Origin: a virus
DNA: 34,623 nt
Strand: one strand, 5' to 3'
Virus record (IMG/VR): IMGVR_UViG_3300048928_000668
Span: 1-34,623 of that record
In this document: positions 7,876-31,268 of the stretch, piece by piece
Layout of the letters: every line of letters begins with the position of its first letter
Position numbering within the stretch: position 1 is the stretch's first letter
Made by a program: the position numbers and the translations under genes
Notes under the pieces: model-generated
Seen by the model: only the letters and a program-made list of their open reading frames with translations
The model's database searches: none
What the model was told of the DNA's origin: nothing

Positions 7876-8187
7876 CTACTCGATTGGGTATCCATCCACG
7901 CCATAGTAGGTGACAGCCTGGCCACGCTCCTCAGCGGCCTTGTCCCTGTCGTGACAGGGCTTGCACAGTGACTGCAGGTTGTCCGGGTCATGGAACAGGG
8001 CGAGATCGCCCTTATGTGGCACGATGTGGTCGACCACCGTTGCTACCTCTACGACCTCCCGCCGTAGGCAGAAGGCGCACAATGGGTGGCAGGTTAGCTG
8101 GTGTTGGCGCAGCGCCTTCCATCTGGCGCGACTATAGAGATGGCGCCACGTCCTGGTGTCAGGCGAAGACAACGTCTTGGTCGCCAC
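7876..8187 (-). CDS. HNH endonuclease, packaging-associated
   Basis: A 103-aa HNH nuclease. The N-terminal helix WRHLYSRARWKALRQHQL precedes a zinc knuckle HPLCAFC. The catalytic DHIVPHKGD (His-His region) follows, and the second zinc pair is in LQSLCKPCHD. This matches the small HNH proteins encoded beside terminase genes in HK97-like phages. In such phages the HNH protein stimulates or is required for TerL cos cleavage (established for HK97 relatives). It starts with GTG at 8187 without a convincing Shine-Dalgarno of its own. The start lies inside a short upstream ORF (8159-8233) that has one, so translational coupling is likely. Confidence 0.88.
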   Translation of the reverse strand: MATKTLSSPDTRTWRHLYSRARWKALRQHQLTCHPLCAFCLRREVVEVATVVDHIVPHKGDLALFHDPDNLQSLCKPCHDRDKAAEERGQAVTYYGVDGYPIE

Positions 8188-8233
8188 GCAACCAGGACAG
8201 CAGGCGCTTCAGGTTGTTGTTGATAAGGGTCAT
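8159..8233 (-). CDS. 24-codon ORF overlapping the HNH start, possible coupling leader
   Basis: ATG at 8233 follows a near-perfect GGAGG site 6 bases upstream. The product MTLINNNLKRLLSWLRGDQD plus VVFA is a short amphipathic helix. The frame ends 28 bases inside the HNH gene. Because the HNH GTG lacks a ribosome site, this micro-ORF may serve to bring ribosomes to it. It could also be a true small protein. Confidence 0.45.
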   Translation of the reverse strand: MTLINNNLKRLLSWLRGDQDVVFA

Positions 8234-8252
8234 GTCTATCCTCCGATATCCA

Positions 8253-8462
8253 TCACTGCACCCGAAGCAGCACGCCGGCTGGCCACTGATTGAAGACCAG
8301 ATCGTTGTTGCTGTCGGCATAGACGGTTTCGACCTCGCCGCAGTCATCACAGGTTTCGACAACCATGAGTGCGGGACCGCCGATTGGCAGCATGACGATT
8401 TCGCCTTCGACGAATACGTCATAGTCGGGAACGGGCATGCGATTGCGTGTTTGTGTGGGCAC
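8253..8462 (-). CDS. DUF2158-like small protein
   Basis: A 69-aa protein starting with GTG at 8462. AGAGGA lies 4-5 bases upstream, which favours this start over the internal ATG at 8438. The core VEGEIVMLPIGGPALMVVE resembles the F-x-GD-x-V-x-L-x-SGGP-x-M-x-V signature of DUF2158 (YodC-like) proteins. These are small beta-barrel proteins common in proteobacteria and phages, with no established role. A CDDC pair follows, so metal binding is possible. It lies between the tRNA gene and the HNH leader ORF. Confidence 0.6.
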   Translation of the reverse strand: MPTQTRNRMPVPDYDVFVEGEIVMLPIGGPALMVVETCDDCGEVETVYADSNNDLVFNQWPAGVLLRVQ

Positions 8463-10096: not shown

Positions 10097-10626
10097 CAGG
10101 CAGCCACCTCCATGATCGGCTCTAGGGGAGTCATGACGCAGTAATTCTTGATGCGCTGATTGGTTGTAATGGCCGCCTCGATTGCCGCGTGCGCTTCAAA
10201 TGGTCCGCACGAAAACCACTCACCCCACAGCCTGTCGAAATAGTGTCCAGCAATCCTGTGAGCGCCGCGTTCGACTGTGCTGATAAATTTAGAGTCGACC
10301 CAAAACACTCGATGCAAAAATAGCTGACGGTGATTTCCGGTTTGGAGCTGTGCCAAACGGGCTATGGGATCGAGAGCTTTACCAATTTTGCACTCGTCTC
10401 CATAAACGTCTCCAATTACATAGACGGCGCCGTTTGAAGCCTCCAGCCCACTGGATCGTATGGCGTGCATGGACTGCACAACCAACTCGTTCAGCATCTC
10501 TAGTGGCTTCGCGACCGTGGCTATTTCGCCCGCAGTCAACTCGCCAAACTGCTCGCCAACCCTCCACTGGGTGTTTCCGACACCAACCAAGTGCCGGACG
10601 GGGGCGTTATCGTTGGCTGGTGTCAT
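10096..10626 (-). CDS. T5orf172/MUG113-type GIY-YIG superfamily protein
   Basis: A 176-aa protein. From about residue 68 it matches the T5orf172 / MUG113 branch of the GIY-YIG nuclease superfamily: GAVYVIGDVYGDECKIGKALDPIARLAQLQTGN, in which VYVI is the GIY-like strand and CKIG the YIG-like strand, with the arginine in IARL. A glutamate in TVERGAHRIAGHY fits the metal-binding Glu, and GEWFSC is the usual end block. The N-terminus (MTPANDNAP, residues 1-60) is unrelated. ATGA overlaps join it to its neighbours. Nuclease activity is likely but untested. In phages this family is found free-standing and fused to antirepressor-like domains. Confidence 0.75.
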   Translation of the reverse strand: MTPANDNAPVRHLVGVGNTQWRVGEQFGELTAGEIATVAKPLEMLNELVVQSMHAIRSSGLEASNGAVYVIGDVYGDECKIGKALDPIARLAQLQTGNHRQLFLHRVFWVDSKFISTVERGAHRIAGHYFDRLWGEWFSCGPFEAHAAIEAAITTNQRIKNYCVMTPLEPIMEVAA

Positions 10627-11114
10627 GCTTGGCTCCTCAAATTATCGTTGGCCGGCTCGCCGAGCCATTCTTTGACGAGAGCGACGACATCGGCCGCGCC
10701 CTGCTCGATTGTCTTCCCGCGTACTATGGTGACCGGGTGACCAAGGCTGGCGAGCAGCGGATGCCTGACCTTTTGGTCCTTGCTCACAGGCGTCACTGGA
10801 CCTTTCATCTCAATCAACAGCAGTCGCCCGCCTGTGGCGTAAATCCTAAGGTCTGGTTCGCCAGCCGCAATCCCGGTTGCCTTCGCGATCGTGGCTTGCT
10901 GCCTTGATCTGCGGGCCGAATTGAAGTCGCCTGCAAAAGTGAACGTCACGCCTGGGCCGGGTTTGTCGCCGTATCCCGGCAACTGACGCAACCTGCGGCA
11001 GGCCTCGGCTTGGATTTCCCACTCAAGCGGGCCAGCCTCCACCAGCTTCGTCTTCGTCACCTTCGTGCCGTTCGCCAGCGTGGTCGTGGTGCGGGAGAGG
11101 CGTGTGCGGGTCAT
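10623..11114 (-). CDS. VRR-NUC (PD-(D/E)XK) nuclease
   Basis: A 163-aa protein starting at ATG 11114 (MTRTRLSRT), with GGAG 8 bases upstream and an ATGA overlap. The frame upstream of this ATG is shadow sequence. The VRR-NUC core is clear: an early helix WEIQAEACRRLRQLPG, then GEPDLRIYATGGRLLLIEMKG (PD and ExK catalytic residues), then PVSKDQKVRHPLLASLGHPVTIVR, where the Q and the VRR-like strand sit. Stand-alone VRR-NUC proteins are common in phages and cut branched or flap DNA. The protein ends with EPANDNLRSQA. Confidence 0.88.
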   Translation of the reverse strand: MTRTRLSRTTTTLANGTKVTKTKLVEAGPLEWEIQAEACRRLRQLPGYGDKPGPGVTFTFAGDFNSARRSRQQATIAKATGIAAGEPDLRIYATGGRLLLIEMKGPVTPVSKDQKVRHPLLASLGHPVTIVRGKTIEQGAADVVALVKEWLGEPANDNLRSQA

Positions 11115-11434
11115 GCTGCTTGCTCCAGTGACGGGGCAACAATCCCAAGCCGCGCCGCGACCACGGGGTGATGCTCGAGCAGCCACGGCTCGTCTTCCCG
11201 CTCCAGTGTGTGCTGAAACCACGTAAACTCATCGCCCCAAAGGCCAGTCATTTTGGCGTATGCCATCCCGGCGGCGTAGCATTCGGGGTGCTCGTATTGG
11301 CGGTAGAAGTCACCCCAATACGAGCCGACGCTGTACTTCGCCGTGCCACCGACTTCGATGGTGGTGCCGCATTGTTCGCACCGGTGGGGCTTCCGTGTAG
11401 CCTTGATGGTCGTGGTGTTGTGGAAGTCGCTCAT
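11111..11434 (-). CDS. Small zinc-finger-like protein
   Basis: A 107-aa protein with KPHRCEQCGTTIEVG near residues 16-30, followed about 25 residues later by YEHPECY. This gives a C-x2-C ... H-x2-C zinc site like that of small phage zinc-finger proteins. The C-terminal 45 residues are helical and acidic (DEFTWFQHTLEREDEPWLL). Start and stop overlap both neighbours as ATGA. It probably binds nucleic acid or a protein partner; no specific function is recognised. Confidence 0.7.
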   Translation of the reverse strand: MSDFHNTTTIKATRKPHRCEQCGTTIEVGGTAKYSVGSYWGDFYRQYEHPECYAAGMAYAKMTGLWGDEFTWFQHTLEREDEPWLLEHHPVVAARLGIVAPSLEQAA

Positions 11435-12342: not shown

Positions 12343-12789
12343 CTACACGGCGCTATCGCGACGCGGCCATGCCCCCTGTCGCTCCAACAAGTCGCGCACA
12401 TTAACGCCGCGCGGCCTTTCTACCCGTGGCCGCAACTCGCCCGCGGGCTTCGTCAAGCCGAGATAAACTTTCTCGGCCGCCTTGTGCATGTCCCACGCCT
12501 CTTGATAAGCGGCGCCGAGGTCGCGGTTGTCGTGGTCAAGCTCACAGGCGGCACGCGCCTCAAGCGAAGCCTGGTAACACTGCACCGCGATGTTGAGTGC
12601 CGCCTGAAGACGGCCTTCGCTTGTCCTGGCGTTACGGCGCTGGCGCACCACTCGCACATAAGTCTCTGTCGAGCCGGCAAGCTCTGCGACCTCGGCATTC
12701 CGTAGACCTGGTCGATCGCGCAGAATACTGCGGATGGCGTCAGCCTTGGTGGCGCGATGACGTTGGTCTGGTGAAACGTGCATGTTCAT
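12343..12789 (-). CDS. Helix-turn-helix DNA-binding protein
   Basis: A 148-aa protein. Residues 14-52 form a winged-helix or HTH segment: KADAIRSILRDRPGLRNAEVAELAGSTETYVRVVRQRR, with the turn at ELAGS and a recognition helix starting at TETYVR. The remainder is helical (AALNIAVQCYQASLEARAACEL) and could mediate oligomerisation. ATG 12789 has AAGGAGA 6-7 bases upstream. The gene lies directly beside the CACGAAAG repeat array (12874-13104), so it is the natural candidate to bind those repeats, either as an initiator accessory or an autoregulator. That link is inference. Confidence 0.75.
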   Translation of the reverse strand: MNMHVSPDQRHRATKADAIRSILRDRPGLRNAEVAELAGSTETYVRVVRQRRNARTSEGRLQAALNIAVQCYQASLEARAACELDHDNRDLGAAYQEAWDMHKAAEKVYLGLTKPAGELRPRVERPRGVNVRDLLERQGAWPRRDSAV

Positions 12790-13192
12790 GATGCTTCTCC
12801 TTTGACAGGAGATTAGAACAAAACAGGAACACTGTGGAGTCGAAAATTGTTGGCCCTAGATGGGGCCTGACCCCTTTCGTGTCTTTTGTGCGCGGTCTCT
12901 TATATACACCCCCTAAATACGCAAGAATTTGTAGTTCCTTCAAAACACAACATAAAAGACATGAAAGGTATAACATATTGATTATGTTATATAATAAGGA
13001 GGACTTTCGTGTTTTCGAGATACCCTTTTGTGCGCACGAAAGGGTCGGCAAAAACCTTTCGTGCAAACACGAAAGGGTCAAAAAACACGAAAGTTGACAC
13101 GAAAGTCTGGGCCTATAAATGGCAAAAAAGAACCCGCTGCCGGGGTGCGGAGCGGGTCAAGTTGGGGGAGGAGGGAGGTGGGGAGATTAGGT
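12790..13192. repeat. Array of CACGAAAG repeats in an AT-rich non-coding stretch: candidate origin or operator
   Basis: A 403-base gap. The octamer CACGAAAG or its complement occurs exactly seven times: 12874, 13004 and 13056 as CTTTCGTG; 13035, 13068, 13085 and 13097 as CACGAAAG. Three near copies lie at 12883, 12960 and 13025. Two are arranged as larger inverted repeats: 13023-13044 (CCCTTTTGTGC / GCACGAAAGGG) and 13055-13076 (CCTTTCGTG-CAAA-CACGAAAGG). Between them, 12890-13003 is markedly AT-rich and contains ATAACATA-TTGAT-TATGTTAT. Iterons, an AT-rich tract and a nearby primase/helicase gene fit a replication origin. A regulator binding array is the alternative. Confidence 0.65.
13123..13156 (-). 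terminator. Rho-independent terminator after 13193-13510 gene
   Basis: Minus strand: ACCCGCT pairs with AGCGGGT around a 12-base loop with inner CCG/CGG pairs, followed by TCTTTTTT. It is well placed to end transcription from the 13.80 kb promoter before the CACGAAAG array. Confidence 0.85.
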
Positions 13193-13510
13193 TTAGGTGG
13201 GCAGGCGAACAGAGACTTCAGCACGCTGTCGATCTGCTATGTCCCAGCACGCGTCAGTGAAGGCATTATGATCAACAATCTTGTAATCTTTGCTGCTGTA
13301 GTGGTGGGCGAGCGCCTTATCTTCGATTACGCCGCCGTTCTGCCGGCAGGCCGCTTCGGCCTTGCATCGCCCTATCCACGTCATGAACTCGTAGCCCCAC
13401 AGTTTGGGCGCCCAAGCCTTGAAGTCGGGGTCACTATCGCCGCCTATAGACCATAGCCATGCGGCAAAGCGGGGCTGTATCTTGTCGCTGTGTGGGTATT
13501 GGCGGCCCAT
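13193..13510 (-). CDS. Hypothetical protein, two-gene operon with 13510-13749
   Basis: A 105-aa protein of unknown function, rich in Trp and other aromatics (FAAWLWSIGG, FKAWAPKLWGYEFMTWIG), with single cysteines in RCKAEAAC and CWDIAD. The start overlaps the upstream stop as TGATG. It is followed by the strong terminator at 13123-13156. It lies between the primase gene terminator and the repeat array, so it is transcribed from the operator-controlled promoter at 13.80 kb. Confidence 0.65.
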   Translation of the reverse strand: MGRQYPHSDKIQPRFAAWLWSIGGDSDPDFKAWAPKLWGYEFMTWIGRCKAEAACRQNGGVIEDKALAHHYSSKDYKIVDHNAFTDACWDIADRQRAEVSVRLPT

Positions 13511-13749
13511 CAGGCCGCCTCAACTTCGTTGATGTCGACGCCAACACGGGCCAGAAAGCTGGTTGCCACCCCACGACCGATCACGGCCGACGACCCCACG
13601 GACACCCACTTGAAAGCGGCGCGTTTACCGGGGATTGCATAGCAGGGCATTTTGCCACCCGACTTGACCAGCACAGATGCATTGACTGCATCTGCATTGT
13701 TGCCGCGATTGGCAATCTTTTCGGCCTGTGTCTTGTTTGCGATCATCAT
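13510..13749 (-). CDS. Hypothetical small protein, first gene after the 13.80 kb promoter
   Basis: A 79-aa protein starting at ATG 13749 or the adjacent ATG 13746. The sequence (KTQAEKIANRGNNADAV, KMPCYAIPGKRAAFKWVSVG) has no recognised family. It is the first gene after the best promoter in the window, TTGACT-N17-TATATA, whose spacer holds an operator. Strong, repressor-controlled early expression is therefore likely. Confidence 0.65.
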   Translation of the reverse strand: MMIANKTQAEKIANRGNNADAVNASVLVKSGGKMPCYAIPGKRAAFKWVSVGSSAVIGRGVATSFLARVGVDINEVEAA

Positions 13750-13841: not shown

Positions 13842-13867
13842 AAAAAGAAAGGGCGCCGAAGCGCCCC
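13842..13867 (-). terminator. Rho-independent terminator after primase/helicase gene
   Basis: Minus strand: GGGCGC-TTCG-GCGCCC followed by TTTCTTTTT. A UUCG tetraloop and a strong stem make this one of the best terminators in the window. It ends the 21.36-13.89 kb operon just before the next promoter. Confidence 0.92.
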
Positions 13868-13890: not shown

Positions 13891-16212
13891 TCACCACATC
13901 CAATAAAGCCGCTTGGACGGCCTACCCTTAGTCTCTCGCGTCTCGTCCTTGATCATCCCAGCGTCCACCATATCCTTCAGGATGTCGTCACGCTGCCGGC
14001 TCTCAATTCCCTTGACCTTGCGAGCCAGGATGCCGCGGGAAATCCCAGCCGTGCCCGCGTCACGGATCACCCGCTCAATGAGCTTGTAGTTCGCCTCGCG
14101 CTGGTTGTCGGCAAGCCGCGCCGTGACCTCCTTGATCATGTCGGCGGCACAGGTCCACGACAGCGACGCCGCCCACTCTAGGATCGACTCCGTGATGACG
14201 GGGCGCTCTGGATCCTGACCGATCGCCACAATCATGGCGAGCTTGATGGCGTTTTCCGCAATGCGCCTGACGAACGGCTTCGCCTCCGGTGCCACTTTGG
14301 CCTCGTGTTCGTCGATGCTGTGCTTGATGGCGGCAAACATCGACAGGGCGTCCGGCGTCCACGGCACGATCTTCGGCTTGTTCTCGCCGGGGCCACGGGT
14401 CTTCTTGACGATGCCCGACAGGTTGCCGGTTCGGCGCTGCACAACATCAATGCCAGCGACGCGCGACATGCGCAGCAGCAACTCGGCCGGCACGAGGCGA
14501 ACGTCGCGTTGCGGCTTAACCACGGGCGGCTTGTCGCCCTTGACGTAGAACAGCACCAGGCGCGGCAACAGACCGTCTTCCGCACTGGACGACGACAGGG
14601 CTGTCCAGAACTGGTCCGGGGTCGACGTTCCATGCACGCAGAGGTTCGGGTTGTAGATGCGCTTGGGCGGGCTGCCCCGATAAGCGGCGCCCTCAAAGAA
14701 CGTGCTGGACGCTGAGTAATAGTCACGCAAATCCGTTGAGATGGCTTTCTGGTGGGCTCCGGCCTTGCGATCAGTGATGTCGCGAATAAACCCACCGAAC
14801 TCGTCAATCTGGCAATTGATCGACGGATTTGCCTCGAGCACTTCGCGCAGGGCCGACGCCGACATGATGCGGGCCGGACCGCTGAACTCGTCGAACTGGC
14901 CCTGGCTCTCCATAAGCAGTCGCTTGATCTGGCTGCGGGCGTGCTCCTTGCCGAATCCGGAGTCAGCCAGCGCCACGGTGTATATGTTGGGGCGGGTGTC
15001 GCGGCTGCCGGTGGAGTAACGAGAGCCAGCCAGCGCCGCAACCAACGGCAAGACCGCGGCAAGAGCAAGGGGGCGGCTTGGCTGCTCGGCCGACGAGGTG
15101 ATCCAGTCAATCAGGTCTTCGACTAGGCCGCCGGGCGTGGTCATGGATTCCAGATCGCCGACAGCGTCGAGATGGTATTCTGCCGCCTCTTCTGGTTCGG
15201 CATAAAGCTCGGTCGGCACCAGTGCGGCGCGCTTGGCCTTCCCGTTTTCGATCAAGCGCGTGACATCAACCACGGGCCAGTTGTCGGTCTCGCGCTCTGG
15301 AATGACGCGCGGCTGCTTTATGCCCGCATCAAGTCCCCGCTTGATCTTGCGGCGGATTTCCTTCTCGCCATCCTTTGCCACCACACCATTGGCGTATGCC
15401 GCATCGAACAGTCCGGCCTCTGCCTCAGTACGCGAAAGCACCCCGGCACCGACAAGGGTGCCAAGGCTGAACGCGGATCGATTGACCGCCTCGCCGCGCC
15501 CACCCTGGCTGGTGTGGGCAAGCTCGTGCAACTCCTCAGACACAGCGCGCTCGACATAGGCCGAGTTGTCGCCGGCCTGATAGGTGTAGTCGGTATTGGT
15601 CGCTTCGCGCACGTCTTCGGGCGGCAGCACCAACTCGAGCAACCAGTCGGGGGCGTCCGGCACCGGTGGCAGGCCGGGCTCGTCCCAGTCGAGCCAGGTG
15701 TATTCCGCACCTGTGGCGAGCACCGAGCCGGGCATGATGACGTAGCCACCAGCCCCGCGCACGTCGATGCCGTCGCCCAGCTTGCCGCGGTTACGCACGC
15801 CGGGCACGTACCGAAAATAGTGATGCTCGCCGCCCCCAGCCGTCTTGGCCACGGCCGTGCGCGGCAGGTCGCCGTGCTTCGCCTCGAGCGCGGCAAGCGT
15901 GTGGTATCCGTTGACCACGTCGCCGTTGTCATCGGTGTGCACGTCGATGTCGATCACGAACGCACCCATCTGCTCGCCGGTGGGGGCGCCAACCATGGAT
16001 GTGGGAAAGCGCTCGCCGAACAAGATGCGAACGACTCGCTCGCTGGTGGTGGCACCCTTAAAACCGTTGCTCACGCGGGGCGTCTTGGCCTTCAGGACTT
16101 CGACTTCACCGGTTGCGGGATCGGTGTTACCGGTCTCCTCGTCCACCTCGCGGCACGGGAAAACGGGAATGCCGGCAGCGGTGTAGGACAGGGCTAGGTC
16201 TAGGGTGGTCAT
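13891..16212 (-). CDS. Bifunctional primase-polymerase / helicase-like replication protein
   Basis: A 773-aa protein, starting at ATG 16212 (MTTLDLALSYTAAGIPVFPC) with a TGATG overlap. The frame upstream is shadow. Residues 1-200 are a Prim-Pol domain: the SNGFKGAT block, catalytic VIDID (86-90) and the His-bearing GGGEHHYFRY (126-135). From about residue 350 it matches DUF3987-type phage primase/helicase proteins. A Walker A-like ADSGFGKEHA (416-425) has Glu where Thr/Ser is usual, and a Walker B-like QIDEFGGFIRD follows about 60 residues later. The last 60 residues form a winged helix (AGISRGILARKVKGIESRQRDDIL). It is probably the phage replication initiator and primase. The CACGAAAG array lies about 0.8 kb downstream. 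Confidence 0.88.
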   Translation of the reverse strand: MTTLDLALSYTAAGIPVFPCREVDEETGNTDPATGEVEVLKAKTPRVSNGFKGATTSERVVRILFGERFPTSMVGAPTGEQMGAFVIDIDVHTDDNGDVVNGYHTLAALEAKHGDLPRTAVAKTAGGGEHHYFRYVPGVRNRGKLGDGIDVRGAGGYVIMPGSVLATGAEYTWLDWDEPGLPPVPDAPDWLLELVLPPEDVREATNTDYTYQAGDNSAYVERAVSEELHELAHTSQGGRGEAVNRSAFSLGTLVGAGVLSRTEAEAGLFDAAYANGVVAKDGEKEIRRKIKRGLDAGIKQPRVIPERETDNWPVVDVTRLIENGKAKRAALVPTELYAEPEEAAEYHLDAVGDLESMTTPGGLVEDLIDWITSSAEQPSRPLALAAVLPLVAALAGSRYSTGSRDTRPNIYTVALADSGFGKEHARSQIKRLLMESQGQFDEFSGPARIMSASALREVLEANPSINCQIDEFGGFIRDITDRKAGAHQKAISTDLRDYYSASSTFFEGAAYRGSPPKRIYNPNLCVHGTSTPDQFWTALSSSSAEDGLLPRLVLFYVKGDKPPVVKPQRDVRLVPAELLLRMSRVAGIDVVQRRTGNLSGIVKKTRGPGENKPKIVPWTPDALSMFAAIKHSIDEHEAKVAPEAKPFVRRIAENAIKLAMIVAIGQDPERPVITESILEWAASLSWTCAADMIKEVTARLADNQREANYKLIERVIRDAGTAGISRGILARKVKGIESRQRDDILKDMVDAGMIKDETRETKGRPSKRLYWMW

Positions 16213-16568
16213 CAGAACGGCGTCCCTGTTTCGACGGCATCCCGAACCCCATCCCCGCATGCCGACCAGAGCTTGCGCACGAAGGCCTCGACGGTTTCGG
16301 ATTCCCACTCGCCCATGTCAGGGCCGTGCTTTTCGATGAATGGGGTGACGGCGTCGATCGCGTAGTCGACCGCGGCGCGCTCGTAGCCGTTGAAGTTGGT
16401 GATGTCTTTGATTTGGGTGAGCAAGGCCATGCACTCCGGGCAAAGGTATTTCGGGTCGTGGCGCGGCGGGTTACCGATGCCCAAGCCATGGGCGTGCCGG
16501 CCGCAGGTCAAACAGGCGGTTGGGTAGCCCGTTTTGTCCTGGGTGGGGCGGAAGGGTAGGACGGTCAT
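16212..16568 (-). CDS. Small zinc-binding protein between methyltransferase and primase
   Basis: A 118-aa protein starting at ATG 16568, overlapping the methyltransferase stop as ATGA. The frame is open much further upstream, but that part is arginine-rich shadow. CLTC (residues 19-22) and CPEC (43-46) form a two-knuckle zinc site within ACLTCGRHAHGLGIG and KYLCPECMALL. The C-terminal half is helical (YERAAVDYAIDAVTPFIEKHG, VEAFVRKLWSACGDG). The layout resembles small alphaproteobacterial phage proteins of the DUF6511 kind, but that name is tentative. Tight coupling to methyltransferase and primase genes suggests a DNA-metabolism role. Confidence 0.72.
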   Translation of the reverse strand: MTVLPFRPTQDKTGYPTACLTCGRHAHGLGIGNPPRHDPKYLCPECMALLTQIKDITNFNGYERAAVDYAIDAVTPFIEKHGPDMGEWESETVEAFVRKLWSACGDGVRDAVETGTPF

Positions 16569-17893
16569 GCGGCACCGGTGAACAGGTCGGGTGCGTTGTC
16601 GTTGGCGGGCTGCGGTTGCGGTGCAACTGCAGCGGGCTCGTGATCCACGATACCGCCGGCCATACGCAACACCGCCCAGGCAATCCGCGCCTCGGCGATC
16701 GGCATGTATTCGTCCTCGCGCTCGATGCCGACGAAGTTGAAGCCCTCCAACACAGCGGCCTTGCCCGTACTGCCGGAACCCATGAACGGATCCAGGATCG
16801 TGCCGCCCGGTGGTGTGATGAGCCGGCCAAGGTAGCGCATCAGGTCGGTTGGCTTGACTGTCGGGTGGATGTTGGCGCGGGGCTCGGGCTTGTAATCCGC
16901 ATCGCGTCGCGTGATGTGCTGGCCCGACGTTTCGGACACCATGCCTCCCGCCTGCTTCGGCAGATGCGCCAACCCCTCGTCGCGGTCCTTGCGACTGGCC
17001 TTGGCACAATAAAAAAAGCGGGCGGCGCTGCCGGAGTCACCATCAATGGCGGGCATGGGCGCAGCGTCCGCACCGTGATAGCCCATCAGGCCATGCTCAC
17101 CAGCCTTGCGACTACCCGACTTGGCATCAGGAAACGCTGCCAGCACTTCGTCGCTGCCGTCGTGGATTATGTTGGCGGGCCAGCGGCCGAGAATGTCTCG
17201 CTTATCGTGCGACTCTTCTCGCCTCTCTTCACAGGCCGCCCTTGCCAACTCGTTCTCGTTCCAAGGGCGTTGCCACCCTTCGTGCTTGTTTGTTGAAAGA
17301 GGAGGCCGTGCTGTAGGCCCATCAGTCGGCACCCGGCACCCATCAATGTTCAACGCCCCCACACCCCATTCGGCGAGGTTGCCCGCAATCGTCCCGGTCA
17401 GCGGCTTGCGCGCCAGACAGATCGGCTCCCATGCTGGCTTCAGCGCCGAGCCCCATCCCTGCCAGTCGCCGGTCTGGCTGTGCGACTTCGGAAAGCCCGA
17501 CCCATAGACCCAGCCCAACTGGTCCCGGATTTCAAATCCAGCATCTTCGATCGCGCAGACCAGCCGGTGATATGTCCGCGTGCCACCGAACGCGACGACA
17601 TGGCCGCCCGGCTTCAAGACGCGCAGGCACTCAGCCCAGAAGGTCTCGGCGAATGCAGTGTCCGCAACATCCCAATCCTTGCCCATGAACCCACGGGCGG
17701 CGCGGGCGAACGCACCGTCTGTTCCGTGCTTTGCGGCTGCCGAACCCGGCTTGCCGAAGCGCTTCTGGATGCTGACCAGTGCGTAAGGAGGATCGCAGAC
17801 AATGCTATCGATCGACGAGTCCGTCAGCGTCTTGAGCACGTCGCGGCTGTCGCCCTGGTGCAGGCGCACCTGGCCGTTGTTCATCTCGATCAT
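16565..17893 (-). CDS. Beta-class DNA methyltransferase (N6-adenine or N4-cytosine)
   Basis: A 442-aa enzyme that transfers a methyl group from AdoMet to a DNA amino group. Motif IV DPPY is at residues 34-37 near the N-terminus. The AdoMet motif I, LDPFMGSGSTGKAAVLEG, is near the C-terminus with NFVGIERED after it; this order defines the beta class. HPTVKPTDLMRYLGRL is the usual motif X region. The middle 200 residues should hold target recognition. ATG 17893 overlaps the GcrA-like stop as TGATG; a GTG one codon upstream and an ATG at 17884 are alternatives. The tail ends PQPANDNAPDLFTGAA, similar to the second methyltransferase. The target sequence cannot be predicted. Confidence 0.9.
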   Translation of the reverse strand: MIEMNNGQVRLHQGDSRDVLKTLTDSSIDSIVCDPPYALVSIQKRFGKPGSAAAKHGTDGAFARAARGFMGKDWDVADTAFAETFWAECLRVLKPGGHVVAFGGTRTYHRLVCAIEDAGFEIRDQLGWVYGSGFPKSHSQTGDWQGWGSALKPAWEPICLARKPLTGTIAGNLAEWGVGALNIDGCRVPTDGPTARPPLSTNKHEGWQRPWNENELARAACEERREESHDKRDILGRWPANIIHDGSDEVLAAFPDAKSGSRKAGEHGLMGYHGADAAPMPAIDGDSGSAARFFYCAKASRKDRDEGLAHLPKQAGGMVSETSGQHITRRDADYKPEPRANIHPTVKPTDLMRYLGRLITPPGGTILDPFMGSGSTGKAAVLEGFNFVGIEREDEYMPIAEARIAWAVLRMAGGIVDHEPAAVAPQPQPANDNAPDLFTGAA

Positions 17894-18411
17894 CACTCCG
17901 CCCCCTCAAAATGCTGCGCCTTGCCGCCATGCATCAGGGCGCGGCGATCATGCCGGTTGACGCCGGGCTGGATGGTCGGACGCTCGGGAATAGCAACCGG
18001 CTCAGGCCCTGCAGGGCGGTAGGCCTTGGCGTAGTGAGCCTCGCAGAACGACTTGGCGTGCACCTTGCCGCCGCAGCACGTCCGGTCGCGATCCGGGCCA
18101 ACTGGCCAAGCGCACTGGTCTTCCCGCCGGTCAAGCAGCGAAACCGGCTCCCCGATAGGCAGCCAGTTGTCCTCGGACACGGGCGGCTCGACGGGCAGTG
18201 CGACGCGGGGACGCTGGACCCGCTCGGAAATGGTAATGCGTGCGCGGTGAGCGACACCATGCACGGCATGGCGCGTGGTTGAGAGGATGGCGGCGATCTG
18301 GGTCGACGTGTGGCCGAGCCCGGCGAGCGCGCGGATAGCGGCGACGCGCTGGTCCTTGTCGAGGTCGGACCAGGTGGCGGGGGTGGCCCCAACGAACGAA
18401 GGCGCACTCAT
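17893..18411 (-). CDS. GcrA-like cell-cycle regulator homologue
   Basis: A 172-aa protein starting at ATG 18411 (MSAPSFVG), overlapping the upstream stop as ATGA. The N-terminal helices (WSDLDKDQRVAAIRALAGLG, then HTSTQIAAILSTTRHAVHGVAHRARI) match the GcrA HTH, where the second helix and AVxGxxHR are diagnostic. The C-terminal block CAWPVG followed by TCCGGKVHAKSFCEAHYAKAY matches the GcrA zinc-like Cys/His sigma-factor-binding domain. In alphaproteobacteria GcrA acts with sigma-70 at promoters carrying CcrM-methylated GANTC. Here the gene lies between two methyltransferase genes, suggesting a phage regulator that reads methylation or redirects host RNA polymerase; that role is inferred. Confidence 0.85.
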   Translation of the reverse strand: MSAPSFVGATPATWSDLDKDQRVAAIRALAGLGHTSTQIAAILSTTRHAVHGVAHRARITISERVQRPRVALPVEPPVSEDNWLPIGEPVSLLDRREDQCAWPVGPDRDRTCCGGKVHAKSFCEAHYAKAYRPAGPEPVAIPERPTIQPGVNRHDRRALMHGGKAQHFEGAE

Positions 18412-18599
18412 TCCCCACCCTCCAGCTTGTACTGGCGCACGATGCGCGTGACGAACATCGCCGGCGTTTCGGTCGGGCCCGGCCGCAGACACACAGTGTC
18501 CGCCACAGCCTTGATAGCCTCAAGGCTCACCGCTGGCGGCGGTGTAATTATTCCTTTCCGAATATCGGAAGGCACGGGAAAGGCGATGACGTTGTTCAT
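18408..18599 (-). CDS. Hypothetical 63-aa protein
   Basis: A small protein between the two methyltransferase-linked genes, with a GGAGC ribosome site 8 bases before ATG 18599 and an ATGA overlap with the GcrA-like gene. The sequence has a proline-rich middle (ITPPPAVSLEAIKAVADTVC) and a C-terminal basic helix (PAMFVTRIVRQYKLEGGE). No family is recognised. It starts 2 bases after the methyltransferase stop, so it is certainly co-transcribed. Confidence 0.62.
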   Translation of the reverse strand: MNNVIAFPVPSDIRKGIITPPPAVSLEAIKAVADTVCLRPGPTETPAMFVTRIVRQYKLEGGE

Positions 18600-18601
18600 G
18601 G

Positions 18602-19780
18602 CTAAGCTCCGATGGCGGTAAAGAGATCGCCACCAGCTTGCGCAGGAGGCAGGTTGTCGTTGGCTGGCTTTAGCTTTTTGGCTGACGGTGGAGCGTCAAT
18701 TCGGCTCCGAGCCATTGCGGCATATTCCGGGTTGAGTTCGATACCGATTGCGTTGCGCCCCAAGCGGGAAGCGACAAGTCCGGTCGTCCCTGTGCCGAAG
18801 AACGGGTCCAGCACCGTACCTCCAACAGGGCAGCCGGCCAGGATGCAAGGCTCGATAAGGTCTGGCGGGAAGGTCGCGAAGTGGGCGCCCTTAAATGGTT
18901 TGGTGGCTACGGTCCAAACGGAGCGCTTGTTGCGCTTCTCCGCCATCAGAAACTCGCGATAGTACCCACCAAGTGCGCCCTTCGCCTCGGCGGCAAGGGC
19001 TTGGATGGCAGGGTCGTTTTTCCCTGCACCATTTGTGGTGGTGAGAGCCTTACCAACATCCGAGATGCCTACCGACCGGATTGCTGCAATGTGCGCCTCG
19101 GTAAGCCCGGCTGCATGGGCTAACTCCATGGCGCGCTTGGCCTGTGGCCGATCACCTGCTTGAGCTTTACCCATTTGGTGGGTTGCTGTTTTCCCGCTGC
19201 TGAACGACGATCCGGCCCAGCCGCGGCTGGATGGCTCTTTGATCGCCTCGCCATCGAAGTAGTAACGTGGACTCTTGCTCATCAAGAAAATGTATTCGTG
19301 CGCCTTTGTGCATCGATCAGTCACCGACTCCGGCATAGGGCTCGGCTTGTGCCAGATGATGTCCTGACGAAGAATCCATCCATCGGCCTGAAGAGCCAAC
19401 GCAACGCGCCACGGGATGCCAATGAGGTTCTTATCCGGTAGCCCGGTAGCGCGCTTTCCGCGTCCTACCCCGGTATCTCCGTGCAGCGCCTTTGCTGATT
19501 TGCCACCAGTAGACCCGCCCCACTTTGAGTCGGACGCGTAACTGTCCCCAAGGTTCAGCCACAGAGTACCATCATCAGCCAGCACACGGCGCACCTCGCG
19601 GAACACGGCGACCATGCCGGCGACGAACTCGTCTGGCGTTGGTTCAAGCCCCATCTGCCCATCAACACCATAGTCGCGTAGTCCGAAGTAGGGCGGGCTG
19701 GTGACGCAGGTCTGCACGCTGCGCTCCGGTAGGGTGCGCAGTTGTTCGCGGCAGTCGCCAATTAGGATTTCTACGGTCAC
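18602..19780 (-). CDS. Beta-class DNA methyltransferase, TSPPY type
   Basis: A 392-aa enzyme starting with GTG at 19780 (VTVEILIGDCREQL), which overlaps the upstream stop as GTGA and has GGAAGG upstream. A much longer frame exists but is shadow sequence. Motif IV is TSPPYFGLRDYG (residues 27-38), the form common in N4-cytosine and some N6-adenine enzymes. Motif I LDPFFGTGTTGLVASRLGR lies near the C-terminus, with AIGIELNPEYAAMA after it. TPDEFVAGMVAVFREVRRVLADDGTLWLNLGD and DIIWHKPSPMPES are typical family blocks. The last 25 residues contain PANDNLPP and GGDLFTAIGA, echoing the tail of the other methyltransferase. Confidence 0.92.
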   Translation of the reverse strand: MTVEILIGDCREQLRTLPERSVQTCVTSPPYFGLRDYGVDGQMGLEPTPDEFVAGMVAVFREVRRVLADDGTLWLNLGDSYASDSKWGGSTGGKSAKALHGDTGVGRGKRATGLPDKNLIGIPWRVALALQADGWILRQDIIWHKPSPMPESVTDRCTKAHEYIFLMSKSPRYYFDGEAIKEPSSRGWAGSSFSSGKTATHQMGKAQAGDRPQAKRAMELAHAAGLTEAHIAAIRSVGISDVGKALTTTNGAGKNDPAIQALAAEAKGALGGYYREFLMAEKRNKRSVWTVATKPFKGAHFATFPPDLIEPCILAGCPVGGTVLDPFFGTGTTGLVASRLGRNAIGIELNPEYAAMARSRIDAPPSAKKLKPANDNLPPAQAGGDLFTAIGA

Positions 19781-19956
19781 GCTGCCATCCTTCCGTGACA
19801 AAACTCGACGGCCTCGCGCGCCAACTGGCGCAGGGTCTGTGCTTGGGCGCGCTGTGTGCGTGCCGCATGGTAGAGGCCGGCCGCAGCGTTGTCGCTGGCG
19901 CGGCGGTCCAGGGTATTGGCGCGGGCCCGGAGTTGGGCTGGGGTGGCGTAGGTCAT
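19777..19956 (-). CDS. Small helical protein upstream of the methyltransferase
   Basis: A 59-aa protein from ATG 19956 (MTYATPAQLRARANTL), overlapping the neighbours at both ends (ATGA upstream, GTGA downstream). It is nearly all helix, rich in Ala, Arg and Gln (RRASDNAAAGLYHAARTQRAQAQTLRQLAREAVEF), and could form a short coiled coil. The upstream extension of the frame is shadow. No family is recognised. Confidence 0.65.
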   Translation of the reverse strand: MTYATPAQLRARANTLDRRASDNAAAGLYHAARTQRAQAQTLRQLAREAVEFCHGRMAA

Positions 19957-20363
19957 GCGACACCGAGAGCGGCGCGGATGCTGCCGATAACGGCGCGCGT
20001 ATCCTCGACCGAGAGCACTGGAGTGATCGGCCAGTAAACGGGGCGATACACCTTGCCGCCGAAAACCTCCCAAATGGTTTTACCATCGGCGGATGCCCAT
20101 TGGATTTCGCGGGCGACGCCAGCTCCTATGCTGCCATCGGGGAAGCGCATGAATGCTAGGCTCCAGCACTCATCAACCACGCCCCTAAAGTAATCCATGC
20201 CATGCGCGGCATACCCCTTCTGGTGATGCGGCTGATCCGGGTTCTCGATGATTGTGTGCGGCTGGCAAATGTCGTCCAGTTCTTTGCGCAACGCCCGCAA
20301 AGCCACGGCCTGTCGCTCTGTTCCGTAATCGGTGATCGGATGAGCGAAATAGACTTTTCTCAT
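19953..20363 (-). CDS. Nucleoside deoxyribosyltransferase-like protein
   Basis: A 136-aa protein with the opening MRKVYFAHPITDYGTERQ, typical of the nucleoside 2-deoxyribosyltransferase-like Rossmann fold seen in phages. It also has a central YFRGVVDECWSLAFMRFPDGSIGAGVAREI, where the aspartate and the G-x-G-V-x-x-E block would bind nucleotide. The family exchanges or hydrolyses N-glycosidic bonds of deoxynucleosides, so a role in nucleotide salvage or base modification is plausible. It overlaps both neighbours by four bases. The family is assigned from fold-level motifs only; substrate is unknown. Confidence 0.65.
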   Translation of the reverse strand: MRKVYFAHPITDYGTERQAVALRALRKELDDICQPHTIIENPDQPHHQKGYAAHGMDYFRGVVDECWSLAFMRFPDGSIGAGVAREIQWASADGKTIWEVFGGKVYRPVYWPITPVLSVEDTRAVIGSIRAALGVA

Positions 20364-21208
20364 GCTGCGCGCTCACGAATGTTGTCGTTCGCACTGATGG
20401 CGCAGTCTCCCGCGCACATCGGCTGGAACAAATCGCCTTGCCCGATCAGTTTGCGACTGCGCGGAAAAGGGTCGCTCCAACCGAAGCCGTGTTTAGCGAT
20501 TGCTTCAGCTTCTAGACCGTCCAGCCATGCTCCCCACTTCGGGTAAAGTGCTGCCGCTTCTGCTCGTTCTGCTTTGGTTTGCATCGTTCCGCACATGCAC
20601 TCACCGGAACGGCATAACTGCCGAGCCACCGGGTTGATCGGAGTTCCTCTGTTGTCGAGGTATCCATCACGGTCCGCCTGCGTCCAGTTGTGGATCAGGT
20701 TCACCCAGATGTTTCCCGGTGCGCCGGGGTCTGCGCGCGACACCTGAAGGTTGTTCCTGCGGTTCTCGCTCTCGTCCTTGCGCGCACCGTTGAGTAGCAG
20801 GATCCGAACATCGCGCTTGCCTTGCCTGATGGCCTTGGAAATCGCTTTTCGAAATGGTCCGGCCTTCAGCACTCGATATGCGAACGCGTGGGCGCCAATA
20901 CCCTTGCCAAAAAAGCCTTTGCGAAGAACGTAGTCCTCGTAGGCGGTGCCAGCGTCTGCCTCAACCACATCCCCAAGCTGACCGTACGTTTCGTGGACAA
21001 ACTGCGTGGTCTCTGGAATGCCACACCGGGTGTTGCCATGCACAACCATGTCAATCTTGATGCCCAGCTCGCGCGCGACCTGATCGTTCGCGGCGCTATC
21101 CTTGCCTCCCGACACCATCGAAACAATGTGCGTCGGGCTGTGCTCGGCGATCGCCTGCTTGAGAATTGCGGCGCTGTCGCTGACTTTGTGACTGATGTTC
21201 AGTTCCAT
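20360..21208 (-). CDS. PAPS reductase / adenine nucleotide alpha hydrolase family protein
   Basis: A 282-aa protein starting at ATG 21208 (MELNISHKVSD), which overlaps the stop of the preceding small gene. The PP-loop SGGKDS at residues 33-38 binds ATP or an adenylylated substrate. LLNGARKDESENRRN (about 138-152) is the second conserved block of phage and Dnd-type members. Cysteines at 199, 204, 206, 265 and 269 could hold an iron-sulfur cluster, as in DndC. Family members activate sulfate or transfer sulfur. Phage versions beside methyltransferases may act in DNA or RNA modification, but no dndDE or iscS-like gene is present here. QGDLF at 257-261 resembles a sliding-clamp-binding motif. It ends ISANDNIRERAA. 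Confidence 0.82.
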   Translation of the reverse strand: MELNISHKVSDSAAILKQAIAEHSPTHIVSMVSGGKDSAANDQVARELGIKIDMVVHGNTRCGIPETTQFVHETYGQLGDVVEADAGTAYEDYVLRKGFFGKGIGAHAFAYRVLKAGPFRKAISKAIRQGKRDVRILLLNGARKDESENRRNNLQVSRADPGAPGNIWVNLIHNWTQADRDGYLDNRGTPINPVARQLCRSGECMCGTMQTKAERAEAAALYPKWGAWLDGLEAEAIAKHGFGWSDPFPRSRKLIGQGDLFQPMCAGDCAISANDNIRERAA

Positions 21209-21357
21209 CACTCTTCCACCCCAAGACCGATCGCCACAGCCTCGTAACAGACACGCGCTACTGCTGGCCGCGTCCACTTGGTGGGGCGCGGATGTGGTTT
21301 GGCCTTGTGGTCGGGCCGCTGGAACGGGGTTGCTGAAGCTTGGTAGGCCATAGCCAT
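21208..21357 (-). CDS. Small basic protein, first gene of the 21.4-13.9 kb operon
   Basis: A 49-aa frame (MAMAYQASATPFQRPDHKAK, then PHPRPTKWTRPAVARVCYEAVAIGLGVEE). AGAGGAG precedes ATG 21357, and its spacing actually suits the second ATG at 21351 better (8 bases). The stop overlaps the next ATG as TGATG, so coupling to the PAPS-reductase-like gene is clear. Proline and basic residues dominate the first half; the second half is a short helix. No family is recognised. It is too short for many gene finders, but the ribosome site and the overlap support it. Confidence 0.62.
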   Translation of the reverse strand: MAMAYQASATPFQRPDHKAKPHPRPTKWTRPAVARVCYEAVAIGLGVEE

Positions 21358-30587: not shown

Positions 30588-31268
30588 ATGAAAGCCGTAG
30601 CCAAGCACATCAAGAACCTTCGGATCGCCGCTGGCCTGAACCAGACTCAATTCGCGGAAAAGGTCGGTGTTAAGCAGGGTACGATTTCCAAGTGGGAAAG
30701 CGGCACCGACGAGCCGCGCGGCGTAAATCTCCAACGCCTGGCGGACGTGCTCGGTGTCGAGCCCAAGGACATAGTCGGCTTCGGCTCAACGGCAGAATAT
30801 GCTGGCACCAAGGTCCGTATTGTTGGCGAACTCGCGGCTGGTGACTGGAAGGACACCTTCGAAATCCCGCACGAAGATCAGGAAGTGGTCACGGTTCAAC
30901 TCGACGACGATCTAGCCAGTCTGCCGATCCAGGGCTTCAAAGTCGTGGGCGACTCCATGAACCAGCACTATCCGGACGGATCGGTGGTCTATGTCGCACC
31001 GCTGCACTCTCTTCCCGGCGCCCCGATGAGTGGCGACCACGTCATGGTGATGCGTCACCGCGACGGCGAAGTTGAAGGCACGATCAAAGAATTTGTGCGC
31101 GACGAAGACGGCAAGCAGTGGCTGTGGCCGCGTAGTTCGTCGCCGATGCACCAAGCGCCGCTGGACTATAAGGGCGGGAAGCGCGGCAAGATCGAGTCCG
31201 TCGTGATTGCCGGTGTGGTTGTGGCCGCACTGGTCAAGCGTCCTTCGCGGTATGGCATCGCGGGATAA
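30588..31268 (+). CDS. CI-like repressor, XRE HTH with LexA-type S24 peptidase
   Basis: A 226-aa repressor. Residues 4-60 are an XRE helix-turn-helix (IKNLRIAAGLNQTQFAEKVGVKQGTISKWESGTDEPR). An Ala-Gly self-cleavage site lies at 84-85 (GELAAGDW). The S24 catalytic serine is in VVGDSMNQHYPDGS (Ser123) and the lysine in VEGTIKEF (Lys167). RecA-stimulated self-cleavage and SOS induction follow from the family. It is the only gene divergent from the leftward operons and sits between operator-bearing promoters at 30.5 and 31.3 kb. By position it should bind the TGCGAATATATTCGCA family of sites. The upstream site is purine-rich (AAAGAGAAAC), not a strong Shine-Dalgarno, so basal translation may be modest. 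Confidence 0.93.
   Translation: MKAVAKHIKNLRIAAGLNQTQFAEKVGVKQGTISKWESGTDEPRGVNLQRLADVLGVEPKDIVGFGSTAEYAGTKVRIVGELAAGDWKDTFEIPHEDQEVVTVQLDDDLASLPIQGFKVVGDSMNQHYPDGSVVYVAPLHSLPGAPMSGDHVMVMRHRDGEVEGTIKEFVRDEDGKQWLWPRSSSPMHQAPLDYKGGKRGKIESVVIAGVVVAALVKRPSRYGIAG

Follow-up and report, generated by a model that had tools for sequence, protein, structure and literature searches.

The DNA analysed here (the window) is a complete IMG/VR virus record of 34.6 kb. It encodes a terminase large subunit, a portal protein, a protease and a major head protein, as well as a CI-like repressor (30588-31268) and an integrase; judged by these genes, the virus is a temperate tailed phage. Its host group is probably the Alphaproteobacteria, given that the closest cellular homologue sits in a Rhizobium genome. 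The region around the array described below, used as a DNA query, matched nothing in phage records.

On one side of the repeat array lies the gene of an 805-residue primase-helicase (13891-16308, minus strand), our proposed initiator, which combines a Prim-Pol domain (PF09250, 102.1 bits) with a DUF3987 domain (PF13148, 50.8 bits). Both scores exceed the gathering score, and the true start of the gene may lie downstream of the listed GTG. The operon terminator that an earlier, sequence-only reading had placed after this gene was recovered as a consensus match: a terminator-like hairpin directly 3' of the gene (13850-13867, minus strand), about 0.75 kb from the array. The 0.8 kb between the primase-helicase stop and the array contain two small minus-strand ORFs (13510-13749 and 13193-13510, spanning 13193-13749), which are absent from relatives and are a probable insertion. 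They are not unusual in this position, since two other phages of the family (L077 and L086) have analogous, different ORFs inserted there.

The first gene past the array encodes a helix-turn-helix (HTH) protein (12343-12789) with a weak match to TrcR (PF06242, below the gathering score). TrcR is an alphaproteobacterial cell cycle regulator, like GcrA. A GcrA-like cell cycle regulator is encoded at 17893-18492 (PF07750, E 9e-10), flanked by two N6/N4 DNA methyltransferase genes (16565-17896 and 18602-20086), and may link the expression of phage genes to methylation in the host; a phosphoadenosine phosphosulfate reductase-like gene (20360-21277) lies near the methyltransferases. A VRR-NUC-like nuclease (10623-11222, minus strand) is the first gene past the array in many relatives; in the window, other small genes intervene.

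The repeat array and its AT-rich core

Within 12874-13105 the window contains seven exact and three one-mismatch copies of CACGAAAG, and no exact copy was found in the rest of the 34.6 kb. The exact copies begin at 12874 (minus), 13004 (minus), 13035 (plus), 13056 (minus), 13068 (plus), 13086 (plus) and 13098 (plus, ending at 13105); those with one mismatch begin at 12883 (minus), 12960 (plus) and 13025 (minus). In 2000 dinucleotide shuffles of 12800-13200, the most frequent 8-mer had at most three copies, compared with seven observed. The copy numbers given by the sequence-only reading are thus borne out, as is the array itself, except that the last copy ends at 13105 and not at 13104. Each repeat unit spans about 10 bp (RCACGAAAGK), and with a weak eleventh copy at 12950-12959 the array comprises eleven sites over 230 bp.

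The sites fall into three groups. Seven iterons form the primase-proximal set (13003-13106, no strand assigned to the set as a whole), at 13097-13106 (plus), 13085-13094 (plus), 13067-13076 (plus), 13055-13064 (minus), 13034-13043 (plus), 13024-13033 (minus) and 13003-13012 (minus), with inverted pairs at 13024-13043 and 13055-13076. The latter, an adjacent pair, also resembles a terminator hairpin followed by TTTTT on the minus strand. Two degenerate plus-strand iterons, ACATGAAAGG (12959-12968) and ACATAAAAGA (12950-12959), lie inside the core (12950-12968), and a distal minus-strand pair, GCACAAAAGA (12882-12891) and ACACGAAAGG (12873-12882), occupies 12873-12891. Larger inverted repeats, also claimed before, were found with arm identities of 74-100%: 13022-13033/13034-13045 (92%), 13004-13030/13049-13075 (74%), 13003-13015/13082-13094 (100%) and 12873-12890/12951-12968 (89%).

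The core between the iteron sets (12900-13003) is 71% AT, compared with 39% for the window, and contains an inverted repeat with 9-nt arms (12969-12977/12983-12991), in agreement with the AT-rich core and palindrome described earlier. By nearest-neighbour stability, the least stable 100 bp of the entire 34.6 kb are located here, at 12898-12997, making this stretch a candidate DNA unwinding element. Adjoining the distal iterons is a GGGGGTGTATATAAGAGACC element (12892-12912, minus strand) that resembles AGGGGGTCTGTATAWAAG in four relatives (L024, L026, L028 and L032). It does not match the sigma-70 consensus, and is possibly a promoter of the downstream operon or a piece of the unwinding element. 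The GC-skew check proposed by the sequence-only reading was run over the window and proved uninformative, showing no clear switch at 12.9 kb.

Counterparts in related phages

Protein scans identified full-length homologues of the primase-helicase, with 61-70% identity, in viral contigs and one Rhizobium genome. The most clustered 8-mer of each locus lies just 3' of the primase-helicase gene, and its sequence differs between phages. All 14 close-homologue loci examined that include a 3' flank have an array, no more than about 300 nt past the primase stop, so that the search for the array in related phages, suggested earlier, yielded arrays of the same kind in each. The anatomy is recurrent: primase stop, often a terminator hairpin, inverted iterons of about 10 bp, an AT-rich core, usually further iterons (this distal set is weak or unmatched in L020, L024 and L033), and then the next gene, commonly that of a VRR-NUC-like protein. 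The element is noncoding, and in 14/14 loci the least stable 100 bp fall in the core between the iteron sets, 109-269 nt past the primase stop.

The iteron motif is GGACGAAAST in most loci, GGATAATT in L032, GGACAAAAT in L031, GGATGAAAGG/GGACGAAAGG in L028 and GGACGAAACT in L004. Its score exceeded that of all 30 shuffles in 12 of the 14 homologues; the exceptions are L024 and L026, in which the iterons are more degenerate. Refined 10-bp profiles gave 6-12 sites per locus. The palindrome of the window, used as a DNA probe, matched no other viral contig, and the exact iteron of the window therefore appears to be unique so far. An 18-bp palindrome from the arrays, TTTCRTCCATGGAYGAAA, matched 14 viral contigs; ten of these encode a primase homologue beside the palindrome, and the other four are isolated matches without an array.

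The spacing and orientation of the proximal set are partly common to the relatives, an example being the order - + - + + at about 0, 10, 31, 41 and 62 bp. The core iterons have positional equivalents in most relatives, and the distal pair has them in L004, L016 (Rhizobium sp. 16-449-1b), L021, L028 and others. The layout fits that of the window beyond random expectation in 11 of 13 relatives (p<=0.04); the fit is marginal for L028 (0.06), and the spacing in L031 does not fit beyond chance. In L032 the iteron sequence is wholly different, yet seven of nine sites fit the layout of the window. Thus, letters change together in all copies of one phage, and spacing and orientation are largely kept, as would be expected if a single DNA-binding protein assembled into an ordered complex on these sites.

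A candidate reader of the iterons

A winged helix is predicted at the C-terminus of the primase-helicase (residues about 736-805, window 13894-14103). Modelled separately, this tail gave three helices and a two-stranded wing with a pLDDT of 88.5; the model of the full-length protein is poor (mean pLDDT 49.9) and confident at the C-terminus only. Fold comparison of the tail model returned many matches to winged helices, with Z up to 10.7. The winged helix of phage P4 alpha was not among the 50 best matches, which is no evidence of a different fold, and a profile of the family found no match among the sequences of solved structures. DUF3987 is a predicted helicase, and winged-helix tails have been predicted to recognise origins (PMC5862659).

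Iteron divergence correlates with winged-helix divergence across the 14 loci (Mantel r=0.68, p=0.002), and continues to do so when the rest of the protein is controlled for (partial r=0.60, p=0.004), noting that the sample consists of 14 sequences related by descent and that a partial Mantel test only partly removes shared descent. For the Prim-Pol domain, linker, helicase and segment 661-735, partial r ranges from -0.12 to 0.11, and in a scan along the primase-helicase the correlation rises only at the C-terminus. Neighbouring proteins show little correlation (VRR-NUC, r=0.15; DUF6511, r=0.03). Removal of the three most divergent iterons left a partial r of 0.44 (p=0.018), and removal of five left 0.26 (p=0.05).

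Within the GACGAAA group, TEGK in the second helix is paired with AAACT iterons in 4/4 cases, and (T/A/Q)..GR with AAAG iterons in 6/6; this K/R rule, which holds in 10/10 cases, was spotted by eye before it was tested, and its p value (Fisher p=0.005) is indicative only. Of two phages found later, L086 fits the rule (K with C) and L077 is mixed (R). The variable residues (SRQR, GWQR, GRRR, AWQR) are located at the start of the third helix, the usual recognition helix of a winged helix. We infer from the covariation and the model that the iterons are bound by the primase-helicase through its predicted winged-helix tail.

Other candidate readers fare less well. No homologue of the 12343-12789 HTH protein, for which the array had earlier been considered a large operator, was detected in 20 related loci, among them those with the homologous array, and no relatives were found in the viral-contig scan at the sensitivity used, which speaks against that assignment. 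The GcrA-like protein likewise has no homologue in the 20 loci. The primase is present in 20/20 by construction; homologues of the VRR-NUC-like protein occur in the 14 close loci.

A candidate replication origin

Several replication systems provide precedents. In SaPIs, the C-terminal domain of Rep recognises iterons directly 3' of the rep gene (PMC7581432); a PICI ori is functional on a plasmid (PMC6092414), and PICI origins always consist of two iteron sets around an AT-rich region. The present element shares with this rep(pri)-ori arrangement the position immediately 3' of the primase-helicase/initiator gene (0.8 kb away in the window), iteron sequences that differ between elements, and two iteron sets around AT-rich DNA (the distal one weak or unmatched in the few relatives listed above). 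Where Rep has its iteron-recognising domain, the primase-helicase has a predicted winged helix that covaries with the iterons. The element differs in belonging to a temperate phage of full size, which has capsid and terminase genes, in having DUF3987 as the helicase part instead of DUF927 or a D5-type helicase, in its fused N-terminal Prim-Pol domain, and in its iterons, which form inverted pairs about 10 and 21 bp apart. Given its own terminase large subunit, portal, protease and major head genes, we rejected the idea that the window is itself a PICI; by analogy, the element would be a variant of the PICI-type origin in a full phage with another helicase.

SCCmec Cch2 also has repeats just 3' of the helicase gene, but these are direct repeats (AAGTG), bound in vitro by its C-terminal domain (PMC7581432), with three iterons in a 23-bp region, and Cch2 has a separate primase and a D5-type helicase. 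Phage P4 alpha is a primase-helicase whose C-terminal winged helix binds origin repeats (summarised in PMC4234260); the likeness is one of description, and P4 differs in its TOPRIM-type primase and its origin arrangement. For pRN1 (ORF904) and Bordetella phage BIP-1, the proposed origin lies directly 3' of the gene of a Prim-Pol fusion replication protein with a winged-helix tail (PMC4234260). The pRN1 origin, however, is a long stem-loop without iterons, and stem-loops have been proposed for Prim-Pol phages (PMC4234260). We rejected an origin of this type for the window, where the inverted repeats comprise dispersed inverted pairs and one short repeat in the core, and include no long stem-loop. 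No published Prim-Pol/DUF3987 iteron origin was found in the open-access papers searched.

Because the array is conserved beside the gene, has an unstable core, covaries with the winged helix and has such precedents, we consider it very likely to be the replication origin of the phage, with the iterons bound by the adjacent Prim-Pol/DUF3987 protein through its C-terminal winged helix. The iteron-type origin already proposed by the sequence-only reading is in this sense supported by comparative data. The protein would bind the iterons of about 10 bp through its winged helix, assemble on the inverted iterons flanking the 100-bp AT-rich core into a multimer, probably paired hexamers, melt the core and load its own helicase domain as a hexamer; the Prim-Pol domain would then prime synthesis, and host or other polymerases would extend the primed strands. 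Counting against an origin are the lack of a GC-skew switch at the array, the exceptional loci L024/L026 and L031, and some distant phages without an array.

An unlikely alternative is that the array serves mainly as an operator or promoter of the following operon (VRR-NUC and others), bound by the primase-helicase or another protein, and that replication starts elsewhere. The distal iterons do adjoin a conserved stretch that resembles GGGGGTSTGTATAWAAG and precedes the next gene, and plasmid initiators commonly autoregulate, but this stretch has no sigma-70 consensus, an operator would need less than an array of eleven sites that spans 230 bp and surrounds the genome's least stable DNA, and the covariation points to the replication protein. 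Operator and origin functions may coexist. It is very unlikely that the array has no function of its own and was kept by descent: the relatives are homologous and some similarity is inherited, but neutral drift does not produce coordinated change of the iterons, both among the copies in one phage and together with the winged helix, and more distant Prim-Pol genes also have arrays after them, unrelated in sequence. We give hardly any weight to a role of the array as operator for the lysogeny repressor or for the HTH protein, even though the window encodes a CI-like repressor and the HTH-type gene adjoins the array, as the HTH protein was not detected in the 20 related loci or, at the sensitivity used, in viral contigs, the exact iteron is absent near the repressor and elsewhere in the window, and the array follows the primase gene and no regulator. 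Equally improbable is a packaging (pac/cos) or centromere-like partition site: repeat arrays mark such sites too, but the terminase genes are 5.4 kb away from this one, which accompanies the primase even among relatives with very different terminases, and the window proteins that were searched included no partition genes.

Arrays of unrelated sequence also occur directly 3' of Prim-Pol genes with other helicase parts. Rhizobium phage 16-3 (L064, NC_011103) has twelve GCGTGACA sites at 8121-8430, directly 3' of p101 (Prim-Pol/AAA_25), and RHph_X2_25 has 14; the array of 16-3, a classical cultivable phage, is a candidate replication origin, and our search of open-access papers found no published origin for this phage. 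Other arrays after Prim-Pol genes are ACTTTTGC in L009, CCCTTCCA in L041 (D5_N), GAAGGAAC in L042, ATGTGAAA on Spartinivicinus plasmid pC and ATTCCAAA in RHph_TM3_3_14B. Achromobacter phage ART has a GGGGCAGA array, with no Prim-Pol domain recognised. An array 3' of the Prim-Pol gene is borderline relative to shuffles in Eidolon. In Pseudoalteromonas H40/1, Serratia BUCT805, RHph_X2_26 and Acinetobacter Loki, the 3' side of the gene has either no array or none that exceeds shuffles. Brucella-type Prim-Pol/DUF3987 genes (L017, L036, L037) are followed by fewer copies of GTGACAAA, a motif similar to that of 16-3 despite the different helicase part. Ochrobactrum plasmid NZ_CP022602 was rejected as a minimal replicon, its Prim-Pol gene being short, truncated and amid transposases.

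Tentatively, and with rather less confidence than for the window itself, we propose a common origin design for the Prim-Pol-fused primase-helicases found in many phages and some plasmids, whose helicase parts are of three unrelated kinds (DUF3987, AAA_25/RepA and D5_N). Each gene would be followed directly on its 3' side by a self-specific iteron array, and a C-terminal DNA-binding domain of rapidly changing specificity would read it. If true, the gene alone could suffice to locate, and in part to decode, the origin of an uncultured phage, and looking 3' of the Prim-Pol gene would be a simple origin-finding rule for metagenomic phages. For a widespread family of alphaproteobacterial temperate phages, the findings provide a candidate origin and initiator, and they would show that an origin layout like that of PICIs also exists in full phages whose helicase is of another kind. 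The matched protein tails and DNA sites of these phages would also constitute a natural series for the study of winged-helix recognition.
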